64,000 nt of DNA from Streptomyces sp. NBC_01217 (GTDB lineage: Bacteria > Actinomycetota > Actinomycetes > Streptomycetales > Streptomycetaceae). Shown one piece after another: positions 18,435 to 23,645 of this stretch. Numbering within the stretch: the first letter of the stretch is position 1; every line of letters begins with the position of its first letter. The notes under the pieces are model-generated. The model had not been told where the DNA came from. It saw only the letters and a list, made by a program, of their open reading frames with translations, and did not search any database. Where the stretch lies: the NCBI RefSeq assembly GCF_035994185.1, contig NZ_CP108539.1:1-64000 (forward strand). Direction: 5' to 3'. Both the position numbers and the translations under genes were made by a program.

Positions 18435-20816
18435 TTAATCAACAGTCGAGTGTCCCGCCGTTTCCTGCCATCCGGTGAGCTGCTCGCGCGTGGTCAGGGT
18501 GTCGGGGTGGACTTGGCCTAGCACCCGCACCATGTCCGGCAGCAGCTCGGCGTAGGCGGCCGCGGCACCGGCCGCATCCCCCGACTCACCCCGCCAGTAG
18601 GCCAGGTGGCTGCGGGTGGTCAGAGTGTCGGGGTGGACTTGGCCCAGCACCCGCACCATGTCCGGCAGCAGCTCGGCGTAGGCGGCCGCGGCACCGGCCG
18701 CATCCCCCGACTCACCCCGCCAGTAGGCCAGGCTGTACCGGGTGTTAAGGGTATCGGGGTGGTCTGGGCCCAGCACCCGGACGTGGTCGGCCAGCAGCTG
18801 TTCGAATGCGTTGGCGGCGCCGGCCGCATCCCCCGACTCACCCCGCCATCGGGCGAGGGTGTACCGGGTGTTCAGGGTGTGGGGGTGGTCTGGGCCCTGT
18901 ACCCGCAGGTAGTCCTCCAGCAGCCCCTCGAGGGCAGCCGTGGCGCCGGCCGCATCCCCCGACTCACCCCGCCACTGGGCGAGATGCATCCGGGCGGTGA
19001 GGGTGTGAGGGTGGTCCGGGCCCAGCACCCGGACCCGGTCGGCGAGCAGCTGTTCGAATGCGGCGGCGGCCCCGGCTGCATCCCCCGACACTCCCCGCCA
19101 CCAGAAGAGGAGGTTCCGGGTTTCGCGGGTGTCGGGGTGGTCCGGGCCCTGCACCCGCAGCCGGTCGATCACCAACTGCTCAAGGGCAGCGACGGCCCCG
19201 GCCGCATCCCCCGACTCACCCCGCCATCGGGCGAGGCTGTCCCGGGCGGTAAGGGTACCGGGATGGTCCGGGCCGAGGCGTTGGCCAGCGGTGTCGGCGA
19301 GGTTTTGGTAGTGGTCGGCGGCTGCGGTGACCTGGCCGCTCTTGCCGAGGCTTAGACCGGTGCGGAAGAGCACGGGGTGGGCGTCGGTCAGGTACAAGGC
19401 GTGATCGGCGTGACGGGTGAGGGCTTGTGCGTTGGCGCGCAGGACCTGTGCGAGGTTGGTGTCGCGTTCGATTTCGGGCCAGGCAGCCATGAGGGCGTCG
19501 GCGGCGGTGCGAGCGTACTGGTCTCGCTGATCGAGGGGGAGGGTGTCGCGGGTAGCGCGCTGGATGAGCTGGTGGACGCGTGCGGCCTGGTGGGGGGCGT
19601 TGGGGGTGTGGTCGATGAGGCTGAGCCGGTCCAGGGCACGCAGCGTGCGCACCGCGTCCCGGCGGGAGACGGGGGCCCGGTCCTCGGCGGGGCGCTGGCT
19701 GGTTGCGGTGCGGTGCGCGGCGAGGTGCGCGCGGGCCACCTCGCTGGTCAGCACCTCCTCGGGAATGCCGTTGGCATCGAGCAGGGCGGTCAGCTGGAGC
19801 ATGGGTCGGGCCAGTCCTGCGGGGGGCAGCCGGTCGGCGCGGTCGAGGGACAGGGACCAGGCGGCGGCGAGGGAGTGGGCCTGCTCGTCGGGCAGCGCGT
19901 CGGGCGCGAGGTCGGCGAGTGTGGTGGCGCGGTCGGCCAGCAGGTCGCGGTAGGCGGCCACGGTCTCGCCGGAGTCGATGAGGTGGGCGGCGGCCTGGGC
20001 CAACGCCAGGGCCAGGTGGCCGAGATCGGCGGCCAGGGCGGTGAGCTGGCCGGCGGGCTCGACTCGGCCGTGGGCGGCCAGGGACGTGGTGAGGTAGGCG
20101 GCCGCTTCGGCCTCGGTGAACAGGCCGACCTCGACCAGGCGGCGGCCTTCCCCGGTCAGGGCGGCGTCGCGGCGGCGGGTGGTGACCAGGGTCCGGCCGT
20201 ACGGGCTGGCAGGCGGCCACAGGCTGTACCGATTGTCGGGGTCGTCGGAGTTGACGACCAGGTCGTCGGGGTCGGCGACGTCGTCCAGGACGATCAGCCA
20301 CCGGCACGGCCGCTGCCCGACCTTCGGGGTCAGCCAGGCCAGGAAGGAGCGGGCCGCCTGTTCCGGATCGTCGGGGTCGGCCCGGCACAGCTCGATGCCG
20401 GCCTGCGCGTATCCGGCCACCACCGGGGAGCGGGCACTGGCGGTGACCCAGACCAGGACGTCCAGGCCGCCGGCGTCCCAGGCGGTGTGGGCGTAGTCCG
20501 CGGCGAGCTGGGTCTTGCCCACCCCACCCATCCCGGCCAGCACCTGGCGCAGGACTGCGGCGCCTCCGTCGTCGACCGCCGCCCGCAGCCGGTCCGCCTC
20601 AACCCGGTGCTGGAAGGACTGCGCCCGGGAGGGGAGGACGCCAACCTGGTGCGGCCACTCCGCGGGCACGCGCGGGGCAGCATGCCGATGCTGGTGGATT
20701 CCCCCGGTGACTGTGCCGGCGGCGATGCCGCCGCCGGTCGCGGTGATGCCCCCGGTGCCGTCGCCGACGGGGTGGTGCGGGACTTCGGGTGGGCTTGCGG
20801 TGGCCGGTCCGCTCAG
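18435..20816 (-). CDS. NLR-like STAND NTPase with TPR-type repeats
   Basis: Domains: a short glycine-rich N-terminal motif (residues ~18-43 if the gene starts at 20816), an NB-ARC-like NTPase with Walker A GMGGVGKT (~95-102) and Walker B 'WLIVLDDVADP', a winged-helix/linker region, then at least seven ~42-residue repeats of the 'LGPDHPDTLNTRYSLAYWRG' type. Such proteins sense a trigger with the repeats, oligomerise on ATP and activate an effector. The frame is open to 20816, where a CTG overlaps the stop of the partner gene (CTGA); the region 20669-20816 reads like protein and carries the motif. GTG 20669 is the first ordinary start and would lose the motif. Confidence 0.8.
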   Translation of the reverse strand: MSGPATASPPEVPHHPVGDGTGGITATGGGIAAGTVTGGIHQHRHAAPRVPAEWPHQVGVLPSRAQSFQHRVEADRLRAAVDDGGAAVLRQVLAGMGGVGKTQLAADYAHTAWDAGGLDVLVWVTASARSPVVAGYAQAGIELCRADPDDPEQAARSFLAWLTPKVGQRPCRWLIVLDDVADPDDLVVNSDDPDNRYSLWPPASPYGRTLVTTRRRDAALTGEGRRLVEVGLFTEAEAAAYLTTSLAAHGRVEPAGQLTALAADLGHLALALAQAAAHLIDSGETVAAYRDLLADRATTLADLAPDALPDEQAHSLAAAWSLSLDRADRLPPAGLARPMLQLTALLDANGIPEEVLTSEVARAHLAAHRTATSQRPAEDRAPVSRRDAVRTLRALDRLSLIDHTPNAPHQAARVHQLIQRATRDTLPLDQRDQYARTAADALMAAWPEIERDTNLAQVLRANAQALTRHADHALYLTDAHPVLFRTGLSLGKSGQVTAAADHYQNLADTAGQRLGPDHPGTLTARDSLARWRGESGDAAGAVAALEQLVIDRLRVQGPDHPDTRETRNLLFWWRGVSGDAAGAAAAFEQLLADRVRVLGPDHPHTLTARMHLAQWRGESGDAAGATAALEGLLEDYLRVQGPDHPHTLNTRYTLARWRGESGDAAGAANAFEQLLADHVRVLGPDHPDTLNTRYSLAYWRGESGDAAGAAAAYAELLPDMVRVLGQVHPDTLTTRSHLAYWRGESGDAAGAAAAYAELLPDMVRVLGQVHPDTLTTREQLTGWQETAGHSTVD
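18480..19260 (-). repeat. Tandem 126-bp repeats coding the TPR-type units
   Basis: About six to seven 126-bp units encode the 42-residue repeats of the NLR-like protein. The two units nearest the 3' end (near 18495-18620 and 18621-18746) are almost identical at DNA level, while the others have diverged. This shows recent unit duplication in the sensor region. Confidence 0.8.
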
Positions 20817-21286
20817 CCCTGGGGCGGAGCCGGCATGGGAGGGGTGCCGATCTGCGCCCCTCCGTGGATCACACCAGCCGCGATCGAGCCCTGCTCGGCA
20901 TGGATGTCTACCGTGGTCGCGGCCAGCCCGCCCGGTCCGGCGGCCACACCGCCCTGCGGGGAGTGCTGTGCGAGCAGGCTGCGCAGTTGCTCGGCCGCAC
21001 CCTCCCGCTCGGCACCGTCCAGGCTTTCCAGCAACGTCTCGATGCGGGTCTGCCAGACGCCCTCCTGCCGACTGCGTGCCTGCTCCTCCTCCGCTGGGTC
21101 GGTGGCCTGCACGGCGGCCGCGATCTGGTCCAGGCGCTCCAGCTCGGCCTGCTCACGCCGCGCATCGCCCCGGCCGAACCAGCGCGCCACCGCCTGCCGC
21201 AGCCCCCTCCATGCGTCCGTCCCCGCCGCTCCCACCAGCGCCGTGCCACCGGACGCGGCCAGCGCGATCAATGCCTGGTCGAGCAT
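20813..21286 (-). CDS. Small helical (Bell-like) protein with amyloid-type motif, partner of the NLR
   Basis: A 157-residue protein starting at ATG 21286 behind GGGGGAGG. The N-terminus is a hydrophobic helix with a conserved-looking 'TALVGAAGTDAWRGLRQAV' block; helices follow to ~105; the C-terminus (125-147) is a glycine-rich segment 'EQGSIAAGVIHGGAQIG'. The downstream STAND protein starts with the matching 'GGGIAAGTVTGGIHQH'. In published bacterial Bell/NLR gene pairs, a helical membrane-active effector carries a C-terminal amyloid motif that is templated by the same motif at the NLR N-terminus. Order, size and motif placement fit that model. No search was run, so the class is inferred. 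Confidence 0.65.
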   Translation of the reverse strand: MLDQALIALAASGGTALVGAAGTDAWRGLRQAVARWFGRGDARREQAELERLDQIAAAVQATDPAEEEQARSRQEGVWQTRIETLLESLDGAEREGAAEQLRSLLAQHSPQGGVAAGPGGLAATTVDIHAEQGSIAAGVIHGGAQIGTPPMPAPPQG

Positions 21287-22364: not shown

Positions 22365-23645
22365 ATGGCCCAGATCAGCCCCAGGCTCGCCCGCACGTAC
22401 TTCGCGGAGATCTCCGCCGGATCCGCCGTCCCACTCGATCTGGACGACCTCGTGAGTATGGTGCGGCTGCGCCAGCACGGCCACGTCGTCCTCGGCGACA
22501 TCGCGGTCCGCTGCTACAAGTACAAGTCGAGGTGGACCTACGACGAACGCGACATCCGCCGCGCCGCCCAAGTGTTCGCCGACTTCCGCCTGGACCCTGA
22601 CGACGTAGTCGAGGTCCAGGTACCGCCCTACCGCGAGCGCGACGACCAGGACCCGGAGGAACGGGGCCGGGCCGACTGGCGGGAGCGGATCGCCTCCTGG
22701 ATGTACTGGCACGCCCGGCACAAGCACCAGCTGGAACGGCCGTACGAAGAGCGGGACGACAGCTGGCAGCGCATCGGCGTCGGCGGGATGCCGGGTGAAC
22801 TGACCTGGGAGGAGTTCATTGCAGCGTCCAGTGGGAGCCGGCGGAGCATCGGCAACACCAGGCCGCTGGAGCTGATGACCCGCTCGGACAGCGGCCTCTT
22901 CCTGCCGAGGACCTACGCCGACCTTCTCGCCCGCTGGGAACAGGTGACAGAGGAGCTCGTAGGCCGGGCCCGGATCTGTAGCCGCTGCCGCGCCCAGGGT
23001 CCCCGGTGGGGCGCTTGGCGCACACCGAGCCCGCTCGGCTACGTCACCCTGTGCCCGCCCTGCTCGGGATCCACGTTCCAGCGGTACACCGGTCACCTGC
23101 GCGGCGTGCTCTACGAGTCGGCCCGCACGCGCAGCACCCGCGCCGACGGCTATCTGTGCCGCATGTGCGCGGAGAGCCGGGCGTCGGTCTGGGATCACTG
23201 CCACGATCACGGATACGTGCGCGGCCCGTTGTGCGGCAGCTGCAACACCTACGAGGGGAAGAGCTCCGCGCACTCCTTCCTGCGGGACAAGGAGGGTTCC
23301 GCGCTGCACCTGCTGGAGTGCCGCGGCTGCCTGGAGCGGCGCACCCTGCCCGCCCGGTACCACGCCGCCCTCGCCCGGATGCATGTGGAGGCGACCGAGC
23401 GCCACGTCATCCGCTCCCGCCGCTGCAGGCGTGAGCCGTGGGTCGAGGACGTCGAACGCGGCCACGGCGCGTACCGCTTCGAGCTGTCCTGCTGGTGGCA
23501 CGACGCAGGATGGACGAAGACGGTCACGATGGTGGAGGCCGCGATGCTTGTGCGGGAGTTCGTCGACCAGGCGCTCGCGACCGCGCAGTCGAACGCCGTG
23601 GTGCCGGCCCCGCGTGCGGCATCGGACACGCCGTCCCCTGCGTGA
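22365..23645 (+). CDS. Endonuclease VII-type (His-Me finger) nuclease
   Basis: A 426-residue protein whose C-terminal half has the recombination-endonuclease VII signature: C265-x2-C268, then DHCHDHGYVRG (residues 277-287) and C290-x2-C293, i.e. two zinc-binding pairs around a beta-beta-alpha His-metal active site. A second Cys set (C205/C208, C230/C233) sits before it. The N-terminal ~200 residues are unrecognised and may recognise the target. T4 endonuclease VII resolves branched DNA; standalone relatives in actinomycetes are often phage or defence nucleases. ATG 22365 is the first good start. Confidence 0.8.
   Translation: MAQISPRLARTYFAEISAGSAVPLDLDDLVSMVRLRQHGHVVLGDIAVRCYKYKSRWTYDERDIRRAAQVFADFRLDPDDVVEVQVPPYRERDDQDPEERGRADWRERIASWMYWHARHKHQLERPYEERDDSWQRIGVGGMPGELTWEEFIAASSGSRRSIGNTRPLELMTRSDSGLFLPRTYADLLARWEQVTEELVGRARICSRCRAQGPRWGAWRTPSPLGYVTLCPPCSGSTFQRYTGHLRGVLYESARTRSTRADGYLCRMCAESRASVWDHCHDHGYVRGPLCGSCNTYEGKSSAHSFLRDKEGSALHLLECRGCLERRTLPARYHAALARMHVEATERHVIRSRRCRREPWVEDVERGHGAYRFELSCWWHDAGWTKTVTMVEAAMLVREFVDQALATAQSNAVVPAPRAASDTPSPA

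Follow-up and report, generated by a model that had tools for sequence, protein, structure and literature searches.

How does a receptor come to carry a signalling motif that lies ahead of the first standard start codon of its frame? This question is raised by two genes on the minus strand of a 64,000-nucleotide stretch of Streptomyces sp. NBC_01217 DNA (contig NZ_CP108539.1, positions 1 to 64,000), here called the window: a short effector gene and, overlapping it by 4 bases, a gene for a nucleotide-binding oligomerisation domain (NOD)-like receptor (NLR) of the STAND (signal transduction ATPases with numerous domains) type. Judging from sequence, we consider it likely that they form an amyloid-signalling pair of the Bell/NLR type, one effector and one receptor, whose junction houses a special expression device. 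A preliminary description had already proposed such a pair; the CTG start and the junction hairpin reported here were absent from it and are the least expected part of the locus. The features that carry the argument are the following.

20813..21286, minus strand: effector gene, with Bell-like helical domain and disordered C-terminal tail bearing the motif (open reading frame (ORF), homologs, AlphaFold2)
20846..20890, minus strand: effector C-terminal signalling motif GSIAAGVIHGGAQIG, residues 133-147 (translation; kept in relatives; profile match to the NLR motif)
18435..20816, minus strand: NLR (STAND) receptor as read from the putative CTG start, 793 aa (Pfam, NCBIfam, open frame)
20688..20747, minus strand: NLR N-terminal motif ITATGGGIAAGTVTGGIHQH (translation; precedes the first ATG/GTG/TTG of the frame)
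20813..20816, minus strand: CTGA overlap of the putative NLR start CTG (20816-20814) and the effector stop TGA (20815-20813) (CTGA in relatives)
20803..20834, minus strand: conserved, putative RNA hairpin, stem 20834-20824 with 20812-20803, one bulged base (base-pair counts in 50 + 36 relatives; model search)

A probable CTG start for the receptor

In the receptor frame of the window, the first ATG, GTG or TTG is a GTG at 20669, downstream of the motif, and the database protein for this receptor (P0123, 744 aa) begins there and lacks the motif. Since no standard start precedes it, the motif can be part of the protein only if translation begins upstream, most simply at CTG 20816. Relatives of the pair point to the same codon. 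Among the 76 pairs that share the motif class of the window (GSIAAG type), 69 have CTGA in the overlap phase, and in none does the receptor frame open with ATGA or GTGA in that phase; in the RHIM-like class, one of these two occurs in 18 of 19 pairs. The codon before TGA in the 69 CTGA loci specifies six amino acids (GGC 53, GAC 10, AGC 2, GCC 2, CGC 1, AAC 1), and the C directly before TGA is invariant, at naive codon-usage odds of 10^-22 if kinship is ignored.

The sequence ahead of the motif also looks translated. No ATG, GTG or TTG precedes the motif in 28 of the 51 anchored loci, within the open frame examined and up to 139 codons upstream. From the CTG to the motif, GC content by codon position is 72/62/82%, compared with 75/55/87% in the receptor body, and GC at third codon positions is highest in 30 of the 34 loci that have no standard start in this stretch; the stretch thus has coding composition in the receptor frame.

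Most exceptions to CTGA fit the prediction of a start at this codon. CTA replaces CTG in L043, L019 and L313, where a standard start follows at codon 25, 18 and 16, respectively, ahead of the motif core. L168 has CTC at this position and GTG two codons further, again with a standard start ahead of the motif core. L300, a member of a second effector family discussed below, keeps the hairpin and has GTG at the CTG position, while in L068 the effector stop lies seven codons earlier, the overlap is lost and the CTG is retained. A further database receptor, P0146, for which we have the protein entry only, begins MSAPG at the equivalent residue. In four annotated plasmid loci of the window class (a fifth that was fetched lies outside this class and was excluded), the annotated start of the downstream gene is 18, 19, 52 and 107 codons past the CTG. 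By eye, no Shine-Dalgarno-like element was seen at the usual distance before the CTG. From these comparisons of sequence, we regard it as very probable that receptor coding begins at the CTG.

A probable RNA hairpin around the effector stop and the CUG

The CTGA overlap is embedded in an inverted repeat. A gapless alignment of 69 junctions shows near-invariant bases. Many fall on third codon positions of the effector, one of which is T in 80%; over the last nine effector codons, third positions carry 1.47 bits, compared with 0.51 in the preceding codons (84 loci, below 90% identity). As RNA, the repeat would form a 10-11-bp stem in two versions, with and without a bulged base, and a loop, typically CCCAGGGCTGA, that contains the effector stop UGA plus the overlapping CUG. 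In alignments of the two versions, 94.4% (50 sequences) and 87.1% (36 sequences) of the cells are paired, a level reached by none of 500 shuffles, and sliding the register by 1-3 columns leaves at most 46.8% and 43.2% paired. Two-sided changes are seen in 22 and 28 cells, respectively, and compensated stem variants include TCCG/CGGA versus TTCG/CGAA as well as GCCGGACGCG/CGCGTCCGGC. The amino acids encoded on both sides vary with the stem, which argues for an RNA constraint and not a protein constraint.

The hairpin is present in 88 of the 107 CTGA loci that either belong to the window motif class or have no receptor found. The 19 hairpin-less loci were left out of the alignments (L049, L201 and L204 are of the window class, L050, L063 and L120 are similar, and the rest have other tails), as were one locus with 45 bases identical to another and L173, which has no motif, leaving 50 + 36 sequences. 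An Rfam search of 20600-21100 returned one match at E ≤ 1, under the gathering score and outside the hairpin, and no family fits the hairpin. We hold with high confidence, based on the conserved pairing, that the junction element acts as an RNA hairpin. A second conserved element lies directly upstream.

20838..20844, minus strand: conserved CCCTCC-type box directly ahead of the hairpin (third codon positions -24, T, 1.84 bits, and -27, C, 1.78 bits)

This box is complementary to Shine-Dalgarno sequences and is kept in relatives, including at third codon positions.

Covariance models built from the two hairpin versions matched 22 and 21 of 150 Streptomyces genomes, 27 in union once one false place is omitted. 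The 47 matches listed correspond to 31 distinct places, 30 of which lie exactly at an effector stop: in each, the stop is placed as expected and closes an open frame whose tail belongs to the window motif class or a variant of it. The remaining one departs from this pattern. A weak model match in genome G018 (E 0.002) lies away from any gene junction. One of the places led to a second effector family, for which profile comparison detected no homology with the first (probability 0.2 over 15 columns). Among 19 loci of this family that were inspected, seven can pair at 0.8 or more of the stem positions (five with CTGA, one with GTGA, one with CTAA); five of these seven have tails of GSAAA/GSVAA/GGAAA type and two (L310, L313) have other glycine-rich tails. 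Three further loci of this family have a partial hairpin (0.64-0.73 of pairs), and members with RHIM-like or TG-type motifs are without it.

The proteins encoded behind the hairpin are also varied, including NB-ARC/TPR, NACHT, HEAT-repeat and WD40 types as well as a short protein with a hydrophobic segment, and median effector identity is 0.56 within and 0.57 between receptor classes. Judged by these sequences, the junction behaves as a connector that joins interchangeable effector and receptor modules. Behind the hairpin of L019, L157, L276/L297 and L306, a motif-like N-terminus is followed by a membrane-like hydrophobic segment with no recognisable NOD; these proteins are possibly a receptor or helper of another kind. 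Those of L022, L023, L076, L083 and L100 have the P-loop SC[TS]GKT, and the two that were scanned (L022 and L100) have TPR-like repeats and no Pfam NOD match, possibly an undescribed STAND type. At L303 (G381:C1:76981-77349), the second effector domain is seemingly fused in one long ORF to a receptor-like protein, and the database protein P0207 begins in the same way.

Such mixing of modules could also be read as the work of a DNA element, with the inverted repeat serving as an operator or as a site of recombination that lets effector and receptor modules be swapped. The same junction indeed follows two effector families without detectable homology and precedes several receptor architectures, and the equal effector identity within and between receptor classes suggests that modules have been shuffled across it. 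However, compensatory stem changes, G-U states and the coexistence of bulged and unbulged versions fit RNA pairing better than a fixed DNA-binding protein, and at 30 of the 31 places found by the models the stop and the CTG (or CTA) lie in the loop. We therefore consider a DNA element unlikely as the explanation, although the hairpin junction could additionally promote recombination, as homologous junction sequence does by itself.

Two proteins with motifs that switch together

The effector ORF runs from ATG 21286 to TGA 20815-20813 and encodes 157 aa. AlphaFold2 predicts five helices (residues 4-20, 25-38, 42-58, 64-88 and 91-108) forming a domain of residues 4-108; the predicted local distance difference test (pLDDT) score is 83-97 in the helices, in blocks of ten residues, and below 50 for residues 111-157. 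The first helix is, by inspection, rich in A, L and V, so that the prediction amounts to a bundle of helices, one of them hydrophobic, in agreement with the short helical protein with hydrophobic front and C-terminal motif that had been described. A Pfam scan of the effector gave no reliable match. The receptor, described as an NB-ARC STAND protein with TPR repeats and an N-terminal motif, has Pfam matches to NB-ARC (PF00931), DUF7779 and TPR_10/TPR_12. Gene order and both motifs, which share the pattern G-x-I-A-A-G-x3-G-G in translation, were likewise found exactly as claimed; the two genes lie on the minus strand and overlap by 4 bases. Further features of the two genes are these.

20891..20947, minus strand: effector pre-motif region with weaker pseudo-repeat VAAGPGGLAATTVDIHAEQ (profile comparison of halves)
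20040..20540, minus strand: NB-ARC nucleotide-binding domain, residues 99-265 of protein P0001 (PF00931, E 5.7e-8)
18438..19370, minus strand: TPR repeat sensor region, approximate (PF13374, PF13424)

For this pseudo-repeat, comparison of the first-half with the second-half profile gave a probability of 7, and of the first half with the NLR motif, 51.

A protein search with the effector yielded 388 relatives at E ≤ 0.001; the 120 matches listed come under the names Streptomyces, Kitasatospora and Streptantibioticus, with "hypothetical protein" as the label of nearly every one. Effector matches occur in 233 of 392 sampled Streptomyces genomes and in 33 of 394 genomes sampled from the class, spanning 10 of 137 genera, and, of 208 distinct effector relatives, 129 are followed by a P-loop protein at a distance of no more than 1.3 kb. 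On one and the same helical domain, these effectors have varied tail motifs: the GSIAAG type of the window, the RHIM-like GNTFxGPTAxQxG (19 of 126 pairs), the TG-rich SAVSGI type and rarer ones.

The two motifs of the window align locally with a score of 52, which is modestly significant (p 0.023, 300 residue shuffles). At the level of the family, using the 48 of 75 loci with a recognisable anchor, the effector-motif and NLR-motif profiles match with a score of 24.3 over 28 columns, compared with a mean of 7.7 and a maximum of 14.5 for column-shuffled receptor profiles (0 of 100 reach 24.3) and with 10.1 for the reversed profile; the core common to both consensus sequences is A-D-x-G-S-I-A-[AV]-G. 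Moreover, with effectors of the same locus or of at least 80% domain identity barred from the prediction, the receptor N-terminus predicts the motif class of its effector in 106 of 126 pairs, whereas 2000 label permutations gave 54 on average and never more than 67. By class, it is correct for 74 of 76 GSIAAG, 19 of 19 RHIM-like, 6 of 9 TG-type and 4 of 4 QAV-type pairs, and for 3 of 18 in the small or unassigned remainder; the classes were set on the effector side by custom regular expressions, and the largest is broad, with at least one member (L163) that seems misplaced.

That receptor and effector motif classes switch together favours signalling via shared motifs, and we judge motif-mediated signalling between the two proteins to be probable. 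It also answers the check set in the preliminary description, conservation of the motif in both partners, which the family profiles and the co-switching uphold. As to the published amyloid-signalling arrangement invoked in the preliminary description, gene order, motif placement, family-level motif conservation and class co-switching stand, while single pairs are weak. The sequences lean, with less assurance, towards motifs that form amyloid in the strict sense. Three motif strings that we sought in PMC8086366 are absent from it.

Alternatively, the likeness of the motifs might be nothing but glycine/alanine-rich composition, with the receptor starting at the downstream GTG and no templating pair at all. 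This would suit the weak single-pair scores and the downstream receptor starts chosen by gene callers, yet the profile match survives comparison with shuffled columns and fails on reversal, the motif classes co-switch, and the sequence ahead of the motif has coding composition; we find this explanation quite improbable.

Putative mechanism, neighbourhood and known systems

The weakest alternative leaves the RNA hairpin in place and dispenses with the CUG start: the hairpin would be a recoding signal for a -1 shift into the receptor frame, or for a hop over the stop, that yields an effector-receptor fusion. Very unlikely in our estimate, frameshift or bypass was rejected as the principal explanation, even though in 69 of 69 loci no stop interrupts the receptor frame over at least the 9 codons that precede the CTG, the CTA of three loci is a poor start and a normal leucine codon, and the hairpin-embedded stop beside a glycine codon resembles translational bypassing in phage T4 gene 60, because inspection revealed no slippery heptamer at the junctions, the pre-stop codon varies (GGC, GAC, AGC, GCC, CGC, AAC), so that re-pairing by one tRNA is impossible across all loci, L068 retains its CTG despite the earlier effector stop, L300 has GTG at that position, and every CTA locus has a standard start ahead of the motif core.

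For a receptor that starts at the CUG, we propose the following course of events. Ribosomes terminating effector translation would melt the hairpin, and a minority of them would restart, in a termination-coupled manner, at the overlapping weak CUG; since restart would occur only after effector termination and by a minority, the receptor would never be made without the effector and would be the scarcer of the two. The TPR region may then sense a trigger, upon which the NB-ARC domain would oligomerise; the clustered N-terminal motifs would fold into an ordered, probably amyloid, structure and impose it on the effector tails by templating; and the helical domains thus gathered could act on the membrane, so that the infected hypha is stopped or killed. 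Oligomerisation and all later steps we infer, and cell death or defence is, on the strength of the sequences, the somewhat favoured outcome.

A number of observations weigh against this overall interpretation. At the start, 17 of 51 CTG loci offer a standard start downstream of the CTG yet ahead of the motif, codon-position diversity of the pre-motif stretch (0.44/0.37/0.47) leans only weakly to coding, the CTA loci would be unexplained should their downstream starts go unused, and the effector L052, with a window-class motif, has ATGA and no hairpin, on a short contig in which no receptor was found. At the junction, L049, L201 and L204 are of the window class, with CTGA in phase, and have no hairpin; the hairpin is not the minimum-energy structure when the 61-nt junction of the window is folded alone, and this junction is as stable as its shuffled versions (z -0.27); the mean folding z over 69 loci is -0.41, and some hairpins are followed by a receptor frame that is short or broken (e.g. 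L255, L278). Tested singly, only 24 of 72 motif pairs with CTGA in the overlap phase reach p ≤ 0.05; much stronger are the ATGA and GTGA pairs, most of which are RHIM-like (18 of 19 and 8 of 9 significant, respectively). From this test, 3 of 129 pairs were left out, having an effector below 100 aa or unknown residues. Finally, comparison of the effector fold with solved structures, including membrane-acting helical bundles, gave no dependable match, with HeLo, MLKL and other known bundles remaining possible, and no family of the PADLOC 2023 models was matched by effector or receptor.

If the proposed expression device holds, a self-templating death system may possess a safety device in which scarce receptor and abundant effector are fixed by a weak start in an RNA hairpin. 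It predicts many database receptor entries of the window class that lack part or all of the signalling motif, and surveys of annotated N-termini would then undercount such pairs. With motif classes that co-switch and one junction common to different effectors and receptors, both specificity and the exchange of modules can be tested directly. A bolder idea, which we think has little chance of being right, is that the junction itself belongs to the alarm, receptor output tracking the translation state via a hairpin that only a terminating ribosome opens and a CUG that initiation factor 3 (IF3) would normally reject. In that event a phage disturbing initiation fidelity or ribosome recycling would cause more CUG restarts, the receptor would exceed a seeding threshold and the waiting effector pool would convert; one RNA device would thus be the dosage and translation-sensing connector for many receptor and effector types.

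The pair was said to reside on a linear plasmid, and the 143,320-bp contig (C2) bears this out: both of its ends share an inverted, palindrome-rich sequence. Positions 1-70 of the window and the far end of the contig have this terminal sequence, as expected of a linear Streptomyces replicon. About 1.5 kb past the NLR end lie genes for an AbiEii toxin and an AbiEi antitoxin (PF08843, PF13338, PF09407; 14815-16894, minus strand), a type IV toxin-antitoxin/abortive infection pair near the immune pair. The opposite flank of the immune pair has a gene (22365-23645, plus strand) whose product contains a recombination endonuclease VII domain (PF02945). On another Streptomyces plasmid, a gene with the annotation "Pycsar system effector family" stands a few kb from a Bell/NLR pair (L246, NZ_CP108839.1, 247906-248388).

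Among known systems, the Bell/NLR pairs with bacterial amyloid signalling sequence (BASS) motifs are closest. The founding paper on them is reportedly that of Dyrka et al. 2020. As described in the available parts of the later papers (PMC7889193, PMC8086366, PMC9815663, PMC12261475), this kind of system has a small helical effector with a C-terminal motif and an adjoining or overlapping NLR gene with an N-terminal motif, occurs in filamentous actinobacteria, and has RHIM-like motifs in BASS3; our pair shares the arrangement and the kind of host, and relatives of its effector bear RHIM-like motifs. Receptor oligomerisation, templated motif folding and effector gathering follow the signalling model outlined in the accessible text of PMC7889193. 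The difference is that the motif class of the window goes together with its RNA junction. We found no description of the CUG start or the junction hairpin in the open-licence literature searched, which was available in part and did not include the founding paper, so that absence from print is not established. The pair belongs to a published kind, and the CTG start with the hairpin junction is the new part.

More distant are HET-S/NWD2 and other fungal amyloid signalosomes, which, in the portion of PMC7889193 at hand, have the effector C-terminal motif, the NLR N-terminal motif and the gene cluster in common with our pair. The effector domain and motif of HET-S/NWD2 differ from those of the window, and no fold match was found. 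To our knowledge, the fungal signalosome genes are not translationally coupled. The NB-ARC/TPR body of the receptor is also like the FxSxx-COOH system TPR protein (NCBIfam NF040586), at 286.3 bits and so under the curated cut-off of 300; the receptor gene of the window pairs with a Bell-like effector.

The start codon itself has its nearest parallel in Streptomyces sigR-rsrA. The consulted sections of PMC5472188 report a GTC start of sigR that is kept in 32 of 34 species, was missed by annotation and sets, through IF3, the ratio of two interacting proteins in one operon. The window class too has a conserved, putative non-standard start missed by annotation. In sigR-rsrA, according to the same sections, it is the first gene that has the odd start, along with a strong ribosome-binding site; in the window pair, by contrast, it is the second gene, and its putative start is a CUG in a hairpin loop that overlaps the stop of the first.

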